Of a stretch of DNA of 52,432 nucleotides, positions 4,136-25,050 are shown piece after piece (positions within the stretch are counted from its first letter, which is position 1; every line of letters starts with the position of its first letter). The position numbers were made by a program, and so were the translations under genes. The DNA is from a virus. Under the pieces are notes generated by a model, which was not told the DNA's origin, did not search any database, and saw only the letters and a program-made list of their open reading frames with translations. The stretch is from the IMG/VR virus record IMGVR_UViG_3300047586_000094, positions 1-52,432 of that record; one strand, written 5' to 3'.

Positions 4136-5269
4136 ATGGATAGAACAAAACCACCGAAGGTTATAATAGATAAAGACGGATGGATGCAAGTACAGATTGA
4201 AGAAGACTTCTTAATACCAGTAGACGTCAGAGATCAAACAGCTTTCTTGAACAGGGAGAAAATAATGAGATATATCAATAATCATCCAGAAAGGATGTAT
4301 CACTATATGGTTGGTGACCAGGAGTTTACAGTTGATTGTAAGTGTAGTGAGTATCTCATTCGAAAACTAATGACTGATAAAGGAGGATTAGAAGAAGATA
4401 TAATACTAGCACAAGAGATAGGACATCAACTTCGATATTTCTATGGTAAGTTAACACAACAGACCAAACTAGCATTCGCGGGTAAATCACAAGCTGGTGG
4501 AGTGCTCGAAGCCAAGGCAGATGAACTGCTCGATTTGTTTGGTTCACTCCATTCTATTGAAGATGTTTGCAGGATAGTAGTTGAACAATGGGGGTTTCAC
4601 GTTCATCCAAATACCATAAGATCATTCTATACCAGGAACTTAAAGGAGATTGAACGACTTAGGGATCAATATGCTGCTGATTATTCTGATGTAGCCTTGA
4701 CGAAGAAACGTGCTCGAATGGATAAATTGTCCATAATTTTTTATACTTATTTTAATAAGTGGTACAAAAATCCTCAGTTGGATTATGCTAATATGTTATT
4801 GAAGTTACTTGAACAGATTAGAAAAGAAGCAGAAGGTGAAATAGTTAATGTGAATGTTCAAGGACAAATCAATATCGATTTAACCTTGGAAGTGAACAAA
4901 ACACTTTATGAAGCATATAAACGTGTGCCGGTTAATAATCTTATCTTGGCAATGGTGGCAGCAAAGAAGGGGATAGACCCAACAAAGTTAATGACTCAGT
5001 TAACGAGCTCTTATTATAAATCTCTGACGGGTTTTGGCACTTATAAACCAGAAGAGGAATTGGTGCATCCGGTTGATTTAACATATAACTGGAATGAGAT
5101 TGAACGTAAGCATCGGACAAAAGATAAATCGATTATAATTGAAGAGGCTCAAATCGTGGAATCAACTGGAAGTTTAAAATCAGATGCTGAAGTAAATACG
5201 ATGAAAAATAAACTTCTTGAACTTCTTGATAAAGATCGTTCAGTTAATAGTAAAAGAATAACGAAATAA
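4136..5269 (+). CDS. possible terminase small subunit / DNA-binding protein
   Basis: 377 residues, soluble and largely helical. Residues ~140-180 (SIEDVCRIVVEQWGFHVHPNT and following) look like a helix-turn-helix similar to those of small terminases, followed by long helices that could oligomerise, then a conserved-looking block around residues 235-300. Size and its place ahead of the structural genes fit a DNA-recognition subunit, but the large terminase is not next to it, so the call is tentative. A plain DNA-binding protein is the alternative. Confidence 0.35.
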   Translation: MDRTKPPKVIIDKDGWMQVQIEEDFLIPVDVRDQTAFLNREKIMRYINNHPERMYHYMVGDQEFTVDCKCSEYLIRKLMTDKGGLEEDIILAQEIGHQLRYFYGKLTQQTKLAFAGKSQAGGVLEAKADELLDLFGSLHSIEDVCRIVVEQWGFHVHPNTIRSFYTRNLKEIERLRDQYAADYSDVALTKKRARMDKLSIIFYTYFNKWYKNPQLDYANMLLKLLEQIRKEAEGEIVNVNVQGQINIDLTLEVNKTLYEAYKRVPVNNLILAMVAAKKGIDPTKLMTQLTSSYYKSLTGFGTYKPEEELVHPVDLTYNWNEIERKHRTKDKSIIIEEAQIVESTGSLKSDAEVNTMKNKLLELLDKDRSVNSKRITK

Positions 5270-9027: not shown

Positions 9028-9572
9028 TGAATGACCGGGGAATTTGGACAACACCAGAAGAAGTAGCAACACATGAGTTTGATTTGCAATTATGTGATGC
9101 TATTTTTGAATTATGGAGTGGTGTGGCTTCTGTGGCAGATGTAGGTTGTGGTAAGGGGGATTATGTGAAGACTCTTCTCAGCAAAGGACTTCGATGCCAA
9201 GGATGGGATGGTAATCCTATGACCCCAGAAATAAGTGGGGGGATTTGTCGAGTGATGGATTTTTCTAAGCCAGCTAATATTGGTTTACATGATTTGGTGA
9301 TGAGCTTGGAGGTGGGTGAACATATTCCAAAAAAGTTTGAAAGTCAGTTTATAACTAATCTAACTGAGGCTTCAGTGAGGTGGATAATACTCAGCTGGGC
9401 TATTCCAGGTCAGGGAGGTGTAGGACATTTTAATGAACAGTCAAATATGTATATTATAAATGAGATGGAGAATCGTGGGTTTAAAATACAACCATCTCTT
9501 TCATTAACTCTTCGGCAGAGGAGTACACTTCCGTGGTTTAAAAATACTTTAATGGTTTTCCGTTATGAATGA
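9027..9572 (+). CDS. class I SAM-dependent methyltransferase
   Basis: 181 residues with SAM-binding motif I VADVGCGKGDYVK at residues ~38-50 and an acidic end of strand 2 (GWDGN). Motif IV is likely the LVMSLEVGEHIPKKF stretch. The fold is that of a small Rossmann-type methyltransferase. It sits between glycosyltransferases with overlapping ends, so a sugar or cell-surface substrate is more likely than DNA. The substrate is not shown by the sequence. Confidence 0.8.
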   Translation: MNDRGIWTTPEEVATHEFDLQLCDAIFELWSGVASVADVGCGKGDYVKTLLSKGLRCQGWDGNPMTPEISGGICRVMDFSKPANIGLHDLVMSLEVGEHIPKKFESQFITNLTEASVRWIILSWAIPGQGGVGHFNEQSNMYIINEMENRGFKIQPSLSLTLRQRSTLPWFKNTLMVFRYE

Positions 9573-10233
9573 ACCAGTAACTGCAATTTTCTTTTCATGC
9601 AAACGTTTAGCACTTCTAAAGAAGACAATAACATCCTTCATAGTTTCAAATACTTATCCTTTAGAAGAGATTATCATAGTTAATGATAGTGGGAATGAGT
9701 TAATTCATTCTCTTTTACAAAAGCAATATCCTGATTGTACTTTGGTTTTACACCCGCACAATATTGGTTTAATTGCCAGCATTGATTTAGGATATAGACA
9801 CATCAAAACAGAATACTTCTTTCATAGTGAAGATGATTGGTGTTGTAATGGGAAGGGGGGATTTATCGAGAAATCTTTAGAGATTATGACTATACGACCT
9901 GATATTGAGGAAGTGTGGTTGGCTGATATGAATGCTCATCCTTTGGAGGCTGAAGTACTTCGTGCCGGAAGGACTGAATATCGGCTGGTTGCTCAGAATT
10001 TTCAAGGTGATTGGCATGGCTTTTCAACAGCTTGTGGGCTGAAGAGAATAAGTGATTATTGTAGGGTTGCACCATACGTAGCTATTCCTTGGGAAAAAAC
10101 CATTTGGCATAGGGAACAGGCTATTGGTTTGGAGTATTATAAATTGGGTTATCGATCAGCAATACTGATGGATGAATATGTATATAACATTGGAATGGGA
10201 CAAAGTGAATACGTTACAGGACTTGAAAAATAA
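9565..10233 (+). CDS. family 2-type glycosyltransferase
   Basis: 222 residues with the GT-A layout: a first strand and helix (VTAIFFSCKRLALLKKTITS), IIIVNDSG, then the acidic metal and sugar-nucleotide motif SEDDW at ~residues 91-95. Overlaps the methyltransferase by 8 bases. It probably transfers a sugar from a nucleotide donor to a surface glycan in the cytoplasm. Specificity unknown. Confidence 0.8.
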   Translation: MNEPVTAIFFSCKRLALLKKTITSFIVSNTYPLEEIIIVNDSGNELIHSLLQKQYPDCTLVLHPHNIGLIASIDLGYRHIKTEYFFHSEDDWCCNGKGGFIEKSLEIMTIRPDIEEVWLADMNAHPLEAEVLRAGRTEYRLVAQNFQGDWHGFSTACGLKRISDYCRVAPYVAIPWEKTIWHREQAIGLEYYKLGYRSAILMDEYVYNIGMGQSEYVTGLEK

Positions 10234-10238
10234 ATGAT

Positions 10239-10727
10239 ATGCCAGGAAGTGTAGAATTATTTAAGCGTTACCCCAACAGAATGTTTATTGAAACTGGAAG
10301 TGCTTACGGGGATGGTATTCAACAAGCATTGGATGCAGGGTTTGAGAATGTGATTTCTATAGAAACATCAAAAGAGTTTTATGATCACTGCGTAGAACGG
10401 TTTAAAGGGGATTATCGGGTTGTCCTCGTTCATGGAGATAGCCGGGAGGAGCTTAAGCACGTCCCTGAGATACCATTCCCGATAACGTTCTGGCTGGATG
10501 GTCACAATGAAGATGATTATCCATTGCTGGCAGAGCTTCAGGCCATAGGTCTTTCAGATATTAAGACTCATACCATATTGATTGATGATCTACGGATGTT
10601 AGATATTGTAAAGCATGGGTTGAGTATAAAAGTTTTAACCGAGAAAATGCTGGAGATCAATCCTAATTATCAGTTTTGTTTTGAGAATGGACATGTTGCA
10701 AATGATATATTAGTTGCGAAGATATGA
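10239..10727 (+). CDS. methyltransferase-like Rossmann protein
   Basis: 162 residues; MFIETGSAYGDGIQQAL fits SAM-binding motif I and ISIETSKEF the acidic end of strand 2. ITFWLDGHNEDD is a later acidic strand end. This pattern matches small class I methyltransferases often encoded beside glycosyltransferases. It overlaps the next gene by four bases. Confidence 0.6.
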   Translation: MPGSVELFKRYPNRMFIETGSAYGDGIQQALDAGFENVISIETSKEFYDHCVERFKGDYRVVLVHGDSREELKHVPEIPFPITFWLDGHNEDDYPLLAELQAIGLSDIKTHTILIDDLRMLDIVKHGLSIKVLTEKMLEINPNYQFCFENGHVANDILVAKI

Positions 10728-11425
10728 AAATAGAAGCCTTTATTTTGTGTAACAACGAAGAGATGATAATGCCATATCTGATGAGGCATTACAATCAGTT
10801 TGCTCATGTGACAATTTTGGAAAACAACTCTACTGACAATACAGTTAAGTTAGCTAAATCGCTGGGAGCAGATGTTAATATTTATGACGTTCCGGATGAG
10901 ATCAATGATCAGTGGTACATGGATGTCAAAAACAATTGCTGGAAGGGATCCAAAGCTGACTGGGCGATTGTAGGGGATGCTGATGAGTTTGTTTATCATC
11001 CGAAGATCCTGAGCATTCTGGAAAAGACTAAAGCTACAATATTTTTGCCGAGATTATTTAATATGTTCTCAGAGAAGTTTCCCACTACACAAGGGCAGAT
11101 TTATGAAGAAGTCAATATGGGGATTGAAGGTGGTGGTAAAATGAATTTATTTCGACCATCAGCTATTAAAGAGATAAATTATGATGCTGGTTGTCACTCG
11201 GCTCATCCTGTTGGAGACGTTCAATTGGATGTTAATAGTCCTATTATGACACTTCATATGAGAAACTTATCAAAAGAATATGTGATTGATCGTAATGCCA
11301 GGGCAGCAGCTCGGCTGAGTCAATTGAATAAAGATATGAAATGGGGATATCATTATAATGCTACCCCAGAAGAGATTAGTAAATATTTTGATGATTCAAT
11401 GACAGCTTTAATTAAAGTAGTATGA
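10724..11425 (+). CDS. glycosyltransferase family 2-like protein
   Basis: 233 residues. ILENNSTDNT and the acidic motif VGDADEFV (~residues 82-89) are typical of GT-A enzymes that act on surface glycans. Late positions include conserved HSAHPVGD and LHMRNLS. ATGA-type overlap with both neighbours indicates tight co-translation. Confidence 0.75.
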   Translation: MKIEAFILCNNEEMIMPYLMRHYNQFAHVTILENNSTDNTVKLAKSLGADVNIYDVPDEINDQWYMDVKNNCWKGSKADWAIVGDADEFVYHPKILSILEKTKATIFLPRLFNMFSEKFPTTQGQIYEEVNMGIEGGGKMNLFRPSAIKEINYDAGCHSAHPVGDVQLDVNSPIMTLHMRNLSKEYVIDRNARAAARLSQLNKDMKWGYHYNATPEEISKYFDDSMTALIKVV

Positions 11426-12009
11426 CGTTACATATCATTTGTGTGGCTTATAATCGAGCAATCCCCCTGAGGATATTAATAGACTCATTTATGGTGCAAA
11501 CTAATCCTAATTGGCAATTACATATCATTCATGATGGTCCAGCCCTGACTGATGTAAAACAAGTCATTAAATTATATAAACATGAATCCCGGGTACATTA
11601 TGAAGAAACTTTTAAAAGAAACGCATGTTGGGGACATCCCAATCGGAAAATGATGTTGGAGAAAATACAAACAGCTGATGGTGATTTTATATTAATGACC
11701 AACGATGATAACTATTATGTCCCGGTTTTTGTAGAGTATTTTCTGAACAAATGTAGCACGAATGCTGGTATGGGTTATTGTAATACTATTCATAACTATA
11801 TGAAGTATAGTGTTTTATATACCCGGGTGAAAGAGAATTATATAGATATGGGATCATTCATAGTTCGGGCAGATATAGCAAAATCTATAGGATTTAAACA
11901 TATGCATGAACAAGCGGATGGACGTTATGCAGAGGAGTGTGCAGCCAGTTGTTTGGAGAAACATTTGTCAGTCATGTATATTGACAAACCTCTGTTTGTC
12001 CACAATTAA
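11422..12009 (+). CDS. glycosyltransferase family 2-like protein
   Basis: 195 residues: the opening LHIICVAYNRAIPLRILIDS and the acidic motif MTNDDNYYVP (~residues 92-101) mark a GT-A enzyme. Its C-terminus is short, with a probable catalytic EECAA near residue 176. It is the last gene of the glycan run, and a T/A-rich element related to the repeated promoter-like motif follows. Confidence 0.75.
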   Translation: MTLHIICVAYNRAIPLRILIDSFMVQTNPNWQLHIIHDGPALTDVKQVIKLYKHESRVHYEETFKRNACWGHPNRKMMLEKIQTADGDFILMTNDDNYYVPVFVEYFLNKCSTNAGMGYCNTIHNYMKYSVLYTRVKENYIDMGSFIVRADIAKSIGFKHMHEQADGRYAEECAASCLEKHLSVMYIDKPLFVHN

Positions 12010-12491: not shown

Positions 12492-12677
12492 ATGAGCAAA
12501 TTATTTCCAAACAAAACCAGCAAAAAAGTAACAGCTATTATTGTATTAATAGTTTGTGGTATTTTAATGATCCCGGCATATACGAATGAACATCTTATTG
12601 TTTTAGTTATTATAGGAGAATTCTTTTTATGGGATGCTTGCTGGTTAGTTGATTTAACTGAACATAAAATGATATGA
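12492..12677 (+). CDS. small two-span membrane protein, 61 aa
   Basis: Residues ~11-29 (KVTAIIVLIVCGILMIPAY) and ~34-52 (HLIVLVIIGEFFLWDACWL) are hydrophobic with a short polar turn between. Size and position beside DUF5675 and transglycosylase genes fit a holin-like or lysis accessory protein, but such proteins cannot be assigned from hydropathy alone. Confidence 0.5.
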   Translation: MSKLFPNKTSKKVTAIIVLIVCGILMIPAYTNEHLIVLVIIGEFFLWDACWLVDLTEHKMI

Positions 12678-12681
12678 TATT

Positions 12682-12795
12682 GGAGAAGTGGTTTCACAAA
12701 TGTACCTTCGTACATAACTATATATTCAGAGATATAAGTTTTTTAGTTTAGTACTATTTTTTACAAATCCCATTAGCCACTTCTCCTTCTTTTTA
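12682..12795 (+). terminator. long branched hairpin with T-rich tail
   Basis: A perfect 10-bp stem GGAGAAGTGG (12682-12691) / CCACTTCTCC (12777-12786) closes ~85 bases and is followed by TTCTTTTT. Inside it are smaller hairpins, such as ATGTAC/GTACAT with a CTTC loop and TATAT/ATATA. It probably ends transcription of the DUF5675 operon before the tmRNA gene, but a small structured RNA is also possible. Confidence 0.5.
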
Positions 12796-12804
12796 AAATT
12801 AAAC

Positions 12805-12821
12805 GTTCTTTGAAGATATTG
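12805..12821 (+). promoter_or_regulatory. boxA-like leader element upstream of tmRNA
   Basis: GTTCTTTGAAGATATTG closely resembles the GTTCTTTGA-CATATTG element found before rRNA genes in Bacteroidota, which I take to be the NusB/NusE boxA antitermination signal. Placed just before a stable RNA gene, it would let polymerase pass structured RNA. Inference from memory of the motif. Confidence 0.45.
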
Positions 12822-12880
12822 TTATTGGAGATTTATAGAGTAGTTTGTTTGGACCGGGGTTCGACTCCCCGCAGCTCCAC
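12821..12880 (+). ncRNA. tmRNA acceptor piece (3' tRNA-like half)
   Basis: Contains a candidate P2 strand GATTTAT (12830-12836), the conserved TTTGTTTGGAC stretch, a perfect T arm (CGGGG 12855-12859, loop TTCGACT, CCCCG 12867-12871) and the acceptor strand CAGCTCC (12872-12878) with discriminator A12879. The DNA continues ACAA rather than ACCA, so the CCA end is not fully encoded and would need tRNA nucleotidyltransferase. Confidence 0.85.
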
Positions 12881-13067
12881 AATTGAGTGGTTGATCTGAA
12901 TTAACAGGGACGTCAAGGCAATTACGGTATTGCCAACCACTCTTCGCCTCACTAGTAGGTGGTAACTGAATGGATATTGGTTAGCAATAAGGCCGGAAAG
13001 ATTAGTAATACTCATCAAATATGGCAATTAGTCTAATGACAGTAAAGGTTACGTAAATCCTACCTTC
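12881..13067 (+). other. internal transcribed spacer of the permuted tmRNA
   Basis: About 187 bases between mature 3' and 5' ends, expected to be cut out by RNase P and other nucleases. It is structured: GAGTGGTTG (12885-12893) pairs with CAACCACTC (12934-12942), enclosing GGCAAT/ATTGCC (12917-12934, sharing one C). A second domain may close by GTAAC/GTTAC and TAGG/CCTA. No tRNA or reading frame is seen. This seems long compared with spacers I recall from other permuted tmRNA genes. Confidence 0.6.
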
Positions 13068-13227
13068 GGGGCTGACATGGTTTTGACAGCAGATGAGGGA
13101 AATAAATCAATGAAGGTAACAAGCATGCCCATTAAACGGCAAAACAATCAACATGGTCGAAAGACCACAGGCTTTACGCTTAGCAGCATAAGCCGACTGA
13201 GGGGGCACTCAGGTAGTGCTCCCCTCT
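13068..13227 (+). ncRNA. tmRNA coding piece (5' half with tag frame)
   Basis: Begins GGGGCTGAC at the acceptor stem, then the D-loop analogue, the P2 strand (AGCAGAT 13088-13094 and ATAAATC 13102-13108), AAGCATGCC, the tag frame and a 3' pseudoknot. AGCAGAT can pair with GTTTGTTT of the acceptor piece (two G-U pairs and a bulge), and ATAAATC pairs perfectly with GATTTAT, separated by an internal loop of similar size on both sides. No obvious PK1 lies between P2 and the tag. Confidence 0.8.
13138..13191 (+). CDS. tmRNA proteolysis-tag frame
   Basis: The frame ends TTA GCA GCA TAA, giving the classic LAA end of tmRNA tags. Reading back gives GKTINMVERPQALRLAA if the resume codon is GGC 13138, unusually long. 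A hairpin TGGTC-GAAA-GACCA sits inside this frame. If it replaces PK1, translation could resume at GCT 13171 and the tag would be only ALRLAA. The resume codon cannot be fixed from sequence alone. Confidence 0.6.
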   Translation, partial: GKTINMVERPQALRLAA

Positions 13228-13229
13228 TT
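13197..13229 (+). terminator. pseudoknot/terminator at the tmRNA 3' end
   Basis: Two alternative folds overlap. CTGAG (13197-13201) with CTCAG (13208-13212), whose loop pairs with TGCTCCCC, forms an H-type pseudoknot like those in tmRNA. Alternatively GGGGGCACT (13201-13209) pairs with AGTGCTCCCC (13215-13224), one bulge, followed by TCTTTT, as an intrinsic terminator. Confidence 0.65.
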
Positions 13230-13261
13230 TATTAAATTAGTAGAAACCAAAAACACAAGTA

Positions 13262-22272: not shown

Positions 22273-25050
22273 ATGATACAGAAACTCAGACGACTATTAG
22301 GCTGGGAAGGTTACGAAGAAGCTCTTCGTAATTTTTCTACAATAGTGGAAGAAAGTGAATTACTCAAGTCAGAGATTGATTTGATGGCTGCTGAATATAT
22401 TGGAGCTTCTAATGATCTTAGCAAGTGGCTATTGGATGAAAAAGAACCAGAGGTGCAGACATTGATCAAATCTCAACAGAGTGGTTTAACTTCCCGGTAC
22501 TTATCTTTTTTGAGTGACAAACAAAAAAGTTATAAGAAGTATGCAGCTGACAAGAAAGCATATATTCAAAAATACCCTGAGTTTGAAAAAGCATTGGCAG
22601 ATCTTAAGAAAAGTGATTTCCTGGAACAAACCCTGGAAAGATATCGTTCTTCTGAGTTGACTCTGGATGAAGCCACGACTATAATCAAAGCAGTTACAAA
22701 GGAGAAAGTCAATTACGCTGACAATATTGTGTTCAATCAAAATGGAGAAATTCTTATTGAACAACGTGGTCCCTTGGATACCACTGGTCCAAATCTTTGG
22801 TGTCTTCCCGGTGGTCATGTCAATATGGGTGAAGCTTATGAAGCAGCTGCAATGCGGGAGTTATGGGAAGAAACTGGATATCAGGTTGATGATATTTGGC
22901 AGGTAGGAGAACATGACGATGATAAATGTCACATACAATATTATACTTCAATGGTGGATACTGATGAGCAATCTCCTATTGTTGATGCCAATGAAACCAG
23001 AAATACAGCATTTGTCCCCGTTAGTAAACTCTACGATTATCCTACTATATTTAACATGTGGGATCGGGTGTATGAGATTTTAGGATTGGATGAAAATATA
23101 GTTCGGGTTAAGAAAGCTATTGCTGAAGGAATTATAAAAGGAGCATCTAAATTAATTGGTGATGCTCAGATTGATTCTATATTTAAAGGTTGTGGTGACG
23201 TTCCGGAAGGAAAGAAGAAAAAGAAAAAGAAGTTTAAAGAAGTGATGGATAAATGGAAGTCCGGAGCTTTACACAGTGGAAGTAAAGAAGGAGAGAAGGT
23301 AACTAGTCAAGCTCAAGCTCAAGCTATTGCTATTGCTATGAGTGAAACAGGACAGAGTAATCAGAAGGGTATTGAGGATGAGTTTGAAAAAGCACAAAAT
23401 AATGAAGATTTAAAAGATCTGGATGATGCAGGTATTCTTCGCACTGCTGTTACAGCTGAATTTGATGCAATAAACCTTTATGAACAGTTAGCAAAGAACG
23501 CTAAAGATGAAAAACTTAAAAAGCTTTTTGCAGATATTGTCAAAGAAGAAAAAACTCATGTTGGGGAGTTTGAAGCACTCCTGACGGAAGTTGATAAAGA
23601 ACAATCTCATGAATTAAAGTCCGGAGAAAAAGAAGAGAAAAAGGTAGAAATTGAAAAGGCTGAATTTATCAGAACAAAATGGCCTGAAGGAACAACAGAA
23701 TTTGAGAAAGCACGGACACTTGGACATTTGATTCCAAAGAAAGTTCAAGTCAAAGATAAATCAGGAAAAGTCCATCTGGCTATTCGCTGGGTCAATCCAA
23801 ATTCAGGAGAATCAGAACATTTTGCATCCGGGATGAAAGAAAACAAAAGAATTACCGGTGCAACAATTGAAGATATTGTAGCTGGTATTGTCGATAGTGA
23901 TTTATCCAGGGCAGATAAAGTCAGGAATTTAATTGATTGTGGAGTTTATGATCCTAAACTACTTACTTTATTGACTGGGGAAACTTATCCACAAAAGGCG
24001 TTACAACAAGCAGATATAAATTTAAAGGACTTACCTGATAATTCAGAAGCGATTGTCACAGAGGTTCGGAAAGAGCAGGGAGTTACTGACACTCCAGAAG
24101 GTCGGGAAGCAAGTATGTTAATGAGAGATCCGGCAGACATAGCAGTTTTATGGGCAAAATACAAATTGAATATAAAAACCGTTCTTAAAGGCAATCATAA
24201 ACTTTGTGTTGCTTATGGAACAGGTGGTGTTGGAAAAACATGGAATTGTATGAATGTAGTTGAGAATTTTAGTCCTCCCGGAGAAGAAGGTTTTAAGTTG
24301 AGACGTTTTAATAAGGAGATACAACCAGATCATGATCAATATGATTATGTAGTTGTAAAAGGAAGGATTTCAGTCGTACAAGTATATGCTGAGATGTATC
24401 GTCATCGGGATAAGATTATTATATTTGATGATTGTGATTCATTTATGAAAGAACAGGATGTACAAGGCTTTCTTAAAGGTGGATTGGATACAGGAAAAGA
24501 TTGTGAGATATCTAATTTGACAGGAAGAGCTATATATAATATTCAAGGTGATCCTGACTCAGGACAGATTCCAGATACGTTCAAATTCAAGGGTGGTGTC
24601 ATTTGTATTACAAACTTGGAATTAGGAGATATTAAAGAAAAGGCAATTCTTACTCGTGCATTGCTTAATAACTTATCAATGATAACAGATGAAACCCTGC
24701 GAATGATTGCAGAGTTTAAAGATACAATGGAAATATATTCTGCAGATAAAGCAACCGTTGTTTTTGTCAGTCAGGAAAATAGAGATCTTGCTTTTAATAT
24801 GTTAACAGAACAAAAAGATAGTTTATCTGGTGGGGATGTCAATGGCAGGATGTATAGTAATATGGCTTTACAAGCACAAGAAGCAGATGATGACGGTATT
24901 GATCAAGCAACAAAAGTAAAAATGGTTCAATTATATATTGATAGTGTTGCTGATAAGTTTACTAAACAAATGAGAGCAGCAGCATTACAAACAAAAATGA
25001 ATCAGATATATAATCAAAAAATACAATCACAACAAGCAAAATCAAGATAA
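22273..25050 (+). CDS. polyvalent protein: Nudix + DUF6496 + ferritin-like + AAA+ ATPase
   Basis: 925 residues. In order: a helical N-terminus; a Nudix hydrolase domain (box 181-203, GHVNMGE..REL.EETGY) that would cut nucleoside diphosphate derivatives; a poly-Lys stretch and DUF6496-like motif (~317-358); a ferritin-like helical bundle (~385-440, Glu396, Glu426, His429 as possible metal ligands); a KA-linker with PKKVQVKDKSGK (480-503); and an AAA+ type ATPase with Walker A GTGGVGKT (649-656) and Walker B IIIFDDCD (715-722). Such mosaics match the 'polyvalent proteins' of phages and conjugative elements, thought to enter the host with DNA. Lys-Ala sites at 139-140, 373-374, 462-463 and 479-480 fall near domain borders. 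Confidence 0.8.
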   Translation: MIQKLRRLLGWEGYEEALRNFSTIVEESELLKSEIDLMAAEYIGASNDLSKWLLDEKEPEVQTLIKSQQSGLTSRYLSFLSDKQKSYKKYAADKKAYIQKYPEFEKALADLKKSDFLEQTLERYRSSELTLDEATTIIKAVTKEKVNYADNIVFNQNGEILIEQRGPLDTTGPNLWCLPGGHVNMGEAYEAAAMRELWEETGYQVDDIWQVGEHDDDKCHIQYYTSMVDTDEQSPIVDANETRNTAFVPVSKLYDYPTIFNMWDRVYEILGLDENIVRVKKAIAEGIIKGASKLIGDAQIDSIFKGCGDVPEGKKKKKKKFKEVMDKWKSGALHSGSKEGEKVTSQAQAQAIAIAMSETGQSNQKGIEDEFEKAQNNEDLKDLDDAGILRTAVTAEFDAINLYEQLAKNAKDEKLKKLFADIVKEEKTHVGEFEALLTEVDKEQSHELKSGEKEEKKVEIEKAEFIRTKWPEGTTEFEKARTLGHLIPKKVQVKDKSGKVHLAIRWVNPNSGESEHFASGMKENKRITGATIEDIVAGIVDSDLSRADKVRNLIDCGVYDPKLLTLLTGETYPQKALQQADINLKDLPDNSEAIVTEVRKEQGVTDTPEGREASMLMRDPADIAVLWAKYKLNIKTVLKGNHKLCVAYGTGGVGKTWNCMNVVENFSPPGEEGFKLRRFNKEIQPDHDQYDYVVVKGRISVVQVYAEMYRHRDKIIIFDDCDSFMKEQDVQGFLKGGLDTGKDCEISNLTGRAIYNIQGDPDSGQIPDTFKFKGGVICITNLELGDIKEKAILTRALLNNLSMITDETLRMIAEFKDTMEIYSADKATVVFVSQENRDLAFNMLTEQKDSLSGGDVNGRMYSNMALQAQEADDDGIDQATKVKMVQLYIDSVADKFTKQMRAAALQTKMNQIYNQKIQSQQAKSR

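Follow-up and report, generated by a model that had tools for sequence, protein, structure and literature searches.

The question raised by the DNA analyzed here, the complete 52,432-nucleotide (nt) IMG/VR virus record IMGVR_UViG_3300047586_000094 (referred to as the window), is whether a phage can hold a transfer-messenger RNA (tmRNA) gene in circularly permuted, two-piece form, and from which lineage such a gene would descend. The permuted architecture had been proposed in a first-pass annotation of the sequence, with an Rfam covariance search as the suggested check. This search was run on the window and on related phages, and the model for permuted tmRNAs, RF04321 (tmRNA_permuted), exceeded its cutoff: in the window it matches positions 12820 to 13191 on the plus strand with 70.5 bits (E value of 1.3e-11 over the whole window; cmscan), the curated gathering threshold being 47 bits. 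Together with the order of the pieces and the covariation described below, this score bears out the proposed architecture. Overall, we assign a probability of about 0.85 to the reading that the phage encodes a circularly permuted ssrA gene at this locus, one of a group common to many Bacteroidota phages and prophages, which would be used together with host factors.

The one-piece tmRNA model RF00023 recognizes the two halves separately, with a 5′-truncated match at positions 12640 to 12882 (28.2 bits) and a 3′-truncated match at positions 13068 to 13260 that is weak on its own (7.3 bits, E value of 1; both cmscan). Two oppositely truncated matches in swapped order are what a permutation predicts. 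Along the plus strand, the acceptor piece (12851 to 12879 from GGAC to the discriminator) is followed by an intervening sequence and then by the coding piece (from 13068) with its terminator; the T arm, both acceptor strands, the G3-U70 pair, and the tag frame were all found where they had been annotated. The elements of the gene are as follows (L numbers denote related viral loci).

12805 to 12881, plus strand: acceptor piece with the P2 3′ strands, T arm, CAGCTCC, and A73, from the RF04321 alignment; 5′ end inferred.
12819 to 12826, plus strand: P2c 3′ strand TTGTTATT, partner 13115 to 13122; GC-to-AU covariation in L108, 100% of cells paired.
12830 to 12836, plus strand: P2b 3′ strand GATTTAT, partner 13102 to 13108; compensatory UA-to-CG and AU-to-GC changes in L005.
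12844 to 12849, plus strand: P2a 3′ strand TTTGTT, partner 13088 to 13093; the three relatives vary among UG, UA, and CG, with 100% of cells paired.
12851 to 12871, plus strand: GGAC and T arm CGGGG-TTCGACT-CCCCG (GGACCGGGGTTCGACTCCCCG); double changes in three of the five T-stem pairs.
12872 to 12878, plus strand: acceptor 3′ strand CAGCTCC with U70, pairing with 13068 to 13074; compensatory CAACTCC/GGGGTTG in L108.
12879, plus strand: discriminator A (A73).
12882 to 13067, plus strand: intervening sequence of about 186 nt, differing in length and sequence in every relative and not conserved.
13068 to 13093, plus strand: start of the coding piece with GGGGCTG (13068 to 13074), D-loop ACATGGTTTTGAC, and P2a 5′ strand AGCAGA.
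13138 to 13191, plus strand: tag frame GKTINMVERPQALRLAA with Gly (GGC) resume codon and TAA stop (13189 to 13191), by homology with L005.
13154 to 13167, plus strand: hairpin TGGTC-GAAA-GACCA within the tag frame; double changes in three of its five pairs.
13199 to 13230, plus strand: intrinsic terminator GAGGGGGCACT...AGTGCTCCCCTC-TTTT ending the coding piece (terminator scan, 13201 to 13223).

The acceptor strands, GGGGCTG and CAGCTCC-A, combine the G3-U70 pair of alanine identity with A73, the U-G pair being invariant in three relatives, and by its sequence the acceptor stem is of the alanine type. CCA is not encoded after the acceptor piece, where ACAA is found instead, and the intervening sequence would presumably be removed by tRNA processing enzymes. 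The downstream pseudoknots PK2 to PK4 are absent from the coding piece, in which the terminator directly follows the tag; hairpins at the terminator position are also visible by eye in L005, L003, and L129. Loss of PK2 to PK4 is usual in permuted tmRNAs.

The P2 helix that had been proposed to join the pieces was recovered, in the form of three short helices (P2a, P2b, and P2c) with compensatory changes. Three members of a 14-gene family could be aligned (the window, L005/L006, and L108/L111), and covariation was scored on these over 38 pairs, which comprise the three P2 blocks, the T stem, P1, and the tag hairpin; the remaining genes were tested by piece swapping. Across this structure, 98.2% of the cells pair. 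Changes on both sides occur in 11 of the 38 pairs, compared with 4.7 ± 1.5 in 500 column shuffles, none of which reached 11, and sliding the register by one to three bases left only zero to two compensatory pairs. Such changes are present in P1, P2a, P2b, and P2c. For the 14 phage genes, cognate acceptor and coding pieces pair with a mean of −15.0 kcal/mol versus −10.4 kcal/mol when swapped (standard deviation, 0.77), a difference reached in 0 of 100,000 permutations. Readings of the locus as a group I intron or a chance repeat were rejected in view of the intact T loop and the covarying helices.

ARAGORN likewise calls a permuted gene in the window ("tmRNA*"), with a wrong tag; its tag, ETKNTSNEKIYVFSLII, was rejected because the other frame is the one conserved in relatives. 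These keep both frame and motif (GKTIQMPERAQVNMAA, GKSIKMSDQSLRMAA, GKTIQMFNQPLRMVA, GKTIKMFTQPLRMVA, and GKVIQMNNAPVRLAA): the tag begins with GK(T/S/V)I.M, carries R(L/M)(A/V)A at its end in most members, and terminates in MAA, MVA, or LAA followed by a stop. Retention of both start and end suggests that selection acts on the peptide and not just on the RNA, although the comparison does not separate this from selection on RNA structure. A degenerate pattern for the tag start matched 36 viral stretches, 0 of 36 being recognized as tmRNA.

A blastn search of phage records with the window tmRNA gave no match, nor did a longer exact pattern; the relatives were found via D-loop patterns and a neighboring gene. 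In L005/L006, the next gene is 63% identical to that of the window and the permuted arrangement stands at the same place; L108/L111 is a third member. Exact D-loop patterns led to further permuted genes in viral contigs (L003, L108/L111, L109, L110, and L118/L120) and to one-piece tmRNA genes in others (L107, L112, L114, and L115). Both halves recur in L005, L108, L129, L120, and others, and at least nine further phage lineages have both halves in the same order together with a tag. Among isolates, Chryseobacterium phage MA9V-3 has a permuted gene (RF04321, 64.7 bits; annotated as tmRNA at 22766 to 23124), and several gut crAss-like phages are among the carriers: cr114_1, cr125_1, cr53_1, cr50_1, and cr10_1 all hold permuted genes, with RF04321 scores of 49.6 to 60.3 bits for cr114_1, cr53_1, cr50_1, and cr10_1 and ARAGORN tmRNA* calls in all except cr53_1. 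GenBank mostly labels these genes just "SsrA" or "tmRNA", that of cr53_1 being unannotated. The crAss-like and MA9V-3 genes share with the window the permuted order, Bacteroidota phages as carriers, and a Gly-first tag where one was called; they differ in their tags (GNFYVTDYTRIAA and, for MA9V-3, GNVIDINKYVAKLEVAA) and in a diverged P2 region.

Several further RNA elements were observed in viral sequences. Structured RNAs of the RAGATH-9 and RAGATH-22 types are found a short distance upstream of crAss-like permuted tmRNAs (L202:1009-1177, L196:741-908, and L198:557-723), the one in L202 abutting the tmRNA, and in L109 a tRNA gene (4316 to 4387) ends 7 nt 5′ of the permuted tmRNA match, which suggests a shared precursor. 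In L116 (minus-strand D-loop match), a phage one-piece tmRNA stops just after the T loop and lacks an acceptor strand; it may be a scar of integration or recombination. Contig L004 (IMGVR_UViG_3300032331_002485) contains at positions 937 to 1018 an 82-nt complete tRNA-like domain (TLD) without a tag frame (RF00023, 71.6 bits), which resembles the TLD-only RNA of mycobacteriophage DS6A and has a D-loop close to the Bacteroidota type. Outside Bacteroidota phages, Brevundimonas phage Kabachok (among L206, L209, and L211) has a permuted tmRNA (RF04321, 57.1 bits) that is unannotated in its record, and matching unannotated stretches were seen, without RF04321 scoring, in Caulobacter phages CcrPW and phiCbK. 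A consensus-based blastn search for alpha-type phage genes gave chance-level matches only.

The expectation that Bacteroidota hosts normally have one-piece genes held: RF00023 exceeded its cutoff in 362 of 395 sampled Bacteroidota genomes, and RF04321 did so in 1 of 395 (G258). The permuted gene of G258 is on a 1.6-Mb contig within an integrated Bacteroidota prophage, a region that also encodes DnaB, DNA polymerase A, a primase-type zinc finger, and a phage integrase; the genome also has a standard one-piece gene (160 bits). In the Bacteroidales metagenome-assembled genome (MAG) G013, a phage-like contig holds a permuted gene (74.3 bits) with tag GKTIKMFTQPLRMVA, and the normal gene, with tag GESNYALAA, is elsewhere in the MAG; the contig may come from a prophage integrated in this genome or from a free phage that was binned along with it. 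The start of the coding piece, GGGGCTGANNTGGTTTTGACAGC, was found in 96 stretches among 84,980 genomes, and the matches listed all belong to Bacteroidota except for one Delongbacteria and one Chlorobiota MAG. In all cellular loci with this sequence where our script located the acceptor strand, it lies 348 to 401 nt downstream of GGGG, whereas it lies upstream in the phages; 83 standard calls in cellular Bacteroidota loci have the piece order opposite to that of the window.

From where, then, did the permuted form come? The UUCGAC D-loop of RF04321, the consensus of the tRNA-like domain in permuted tmRNAs of alphaproteobacteria, betaproteobacteria, and cyanobacteria, is not the one found in the window. 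Instead, UUUGAC is present in 13 of the 14 phage members compared, with UUUCGAC only in MA9V-3. TTGTTT, the commonest six bases before GGAC in the cellular Bacteroidota genes (38 loci), is identical in the window, and most relatives share its Gly resume codon, as in Bacteroidales tags such as GENNYALAA. By these marks (GGUUUUGACAG, UUGUUU|GGAC, and the Gly codon), the tRNA-like sequence of the window is of the Bacteroidota type. With standard Bacteroidales tmRNAs it has in common this D-loop, the junction, the codon, and an AAGCAUG(Y)C block after P2; those genes differ in being one piece of about 390 to 410 nt with tags such as GENNYALAA and GESNYALAA. A TLD tree of about 60 nt, weakly resolved, mixes phage genes with Bacteroidales genes and sets the single alpha-phage permuted gene included apart, cellular betaproteobacterial and cyanobacterial genes being outside this comparison. 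Taken together, D-loop, P2/T junction, Gly codon, and tree favor derivation of the permutation from a Bacteroidota gene, and most likely a Bacteroidota-type tmRNA was permuted independently of its alphaproteobacterial, betaproteobacterial, and cyanobacterial counterparts. Leader blocks, which are similar among the crAss-like genes, L130, and MA9V-3, are a hint of one permutation event. At slightly better than even odds, we regard the phage genes as a fourth independent tmRNA permutation that was born and spread in viruses, stemming from one ancestral Bacteroidota-phage event and now found in unrelated families (the myovirus group of the window, crAss-like phages, the Chryseobacterium phage, and prophages) with their own diverged tags, beside the one-piece tmRNA of the host. 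Permuted tmRNAs do exist in alphaproteobacterial phages (PMC9004378), and RNA genes are exchanged among phages, so that an alphaproteobacterial, cyanobacterial, or other phage tmRNA might have been the source of the permuted form, with later convergence of its sequence on the Bacteroidota host gene or recombination with that gene. We consider this unlikely, as most members have a D-loop, P2/T junction, and Gly resume codon of the Bacteroidota type and other phages hold standard one-piece genes with the same signature.

As to function, the steps of processing, charging, and SmpB use are carried over from established knowledge of two-piece tmRNAs. A single precursor would be cut by host tRNA processing enzymes, with RNase P acting before GGGG and 3′ processing after the discriminator followed by CCA addition, yielding RNAs of about 75 and 130 to 160 nt joined by P1 and P2. 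After charging by host alanyl-tRNA synthetase (AlaRS), host SmpB and EF-Tu would deliver the RNA to ribosomes that have stalled on broken mRNA in the infected cell, and the phage-specific tag (GKTI-M...RLAA) would be appended, which should still act as a degron for host proteases. The RNA could also be made and charged yet mainly compete with host tmRNA for SmpB instead of tagging, as shown for a TLD-only molecule like that of DS6A; such inhibitors are known (PMC4131195, PMC11915505), and L004 has a TLD-only element. This is improbable for the window, given that every member of its clade keeps, despite divergence, a tag frame with LAA, MAA, or VA at its end and a stop, and with a covarying hairpin inside. 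Still far less probable is a functionless relic in decay, a host ssrA picked up when a prophage excised imperfectly and scrambled in order by recombination: ssrA is indeed a common phage integration site (PMC11915505), but the compensatory changes across both pieces contradict decay, and the conserved tag, the terminator, and the recurrence in unrelated phage families also argue against it.

Several observations weigh against a functional permuted gene of Bacteroidota-phage origin. The duplex of the window itself is modestly better than that of shuffled acceptor pieces, 8% of the shuffles equaling it, so that the statistical strength comes from the family. The TLD tree has weak support, and we infer both a single origin in Bacteroidota phages and its independence from the alphaproteobacterial, betaproteobacterial, and cyanobacterial origins. 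SmpB was encoded in none of the nine phage records searched and was found in the control genome, Bacteroides ihuae; function would therefore need host SmpB (and AlaRS). Finally, a terminator-like hairpin stands immediately upstream of the acceptor piece, and no clear promoter of its own is seen directly 5′ of that piece in the window. On the supporting side, consensus Bacteroidota promoters precede the permuted gene in L129, L003, and L108.

Permuted tmRNAs have been described for alphaproteobacteria, betaproteobacteria, and cyanobacteria, whose models were merged into RF04321 (PMC11915505). The window agrees with this family in its order (acceptor piece, intervening sequence, and coding piece) and in P1, P2, and T stem; it differs in its Bacteroidota-type tRNA-like domain, in belonging to phages of one-piece-gene hosts, in its Gly-initiated tag, and in its three-block P2. 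For phage Melnitz and marine phages, two-piece tmRNAs were reported; of the tmRNAs in 18,146 genomes, 53 were suggested to have this form, and 50 of these are aquatic (PMC9004378). The Melnitz and pelagimyophage genes are likewise permuted, phage-borne ssrA genes with a proposed role during infection, but that of Melnitz is alphaproteobacterial-type as reported and linked to a glutamine riboswitch. An older list of ssrA-bearing phages includes the TLD-only DS6A (PMC4131195). The MA9V-3 paper (PMC13120357) and flavobacterial phage papers (PMC8776804, PMC11590407) mention tmRNA in passages that do not take up its form. No report of the permuted form in Bacteroidota phages was found in the literature searched, subscription journals and supplements lying outside the search. 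The first-pass description as "a new instance or a distinct invention" thus stands in part: a distinct invention is favored, though unproven, by the Bacteroidota-type tRNA-like domain, whereas novelty was overstated, since permuted phage tmRNAs have been published and Bacteroidota-phage examples are already in GenBank as tmRNA or SsrA. Permuted tmRNA and its occurrence in phages being known, it is the Bacteroidota-phage lineage that is probably undescribed. The current Rfam permuted model is built from the three main bacterial clades alone; a virus-borne permutation of Bacteroidota type would be a further case of convergent gene breakage, in a trait that recurs in Bacteroidota phages including gut crAss-like ones. 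The natural pair of host one-piece and phage two-piece tmRNA in the same cell would allow one to ask why permutation is tolerated or favored and what the phage gains from its own tag.

The window encodes a portal protein, a major head protein, and a tail sheath and hence derives from a contractile-tailed phage. The closest phage records to its major head protein are human fecal phages, followed by Bacteroides phages and Chryseobacterium phage MA9V-3. No second tmRNA and no tRNA was found anywhere in the record (ARAGORN, Rfam cmscan, and record check); thus, no one-piece partner for the 5′ half, which had been named as a possible objection, exists there, and related phages retain both halves. 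The upstream hairpin noted above has these features:

12682 to 12790, plus strand: long hairpin GGAGAAGTGG...CCACTTCTCC with internal stems and a T-run; fold z = −5.1 versus shuffles.

It lies outside the mature tmRNA and could terminate the upstream unit or be a small RNA in its own right; a hairpin and T-run are also visible by eye upstream in L005 and L108, where the folds do not exceed shuffles. Bacteroidota promoter motifs are not enriched across the whole window and therefore do not help in assigning its host. A boxA antiterminator reading of GTTCTTTGA, upstream of the acceptor piece, is not claimed, as chance alone should give the window one match of this kind and the L108 counterpart, UUCAUUGA, is complementary to UCAAUGAA of the coding piece. 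Further upstream, at positions 9565 to 12006, three genes within 2.5 kb encode glycosyltransferase family 2 domains.
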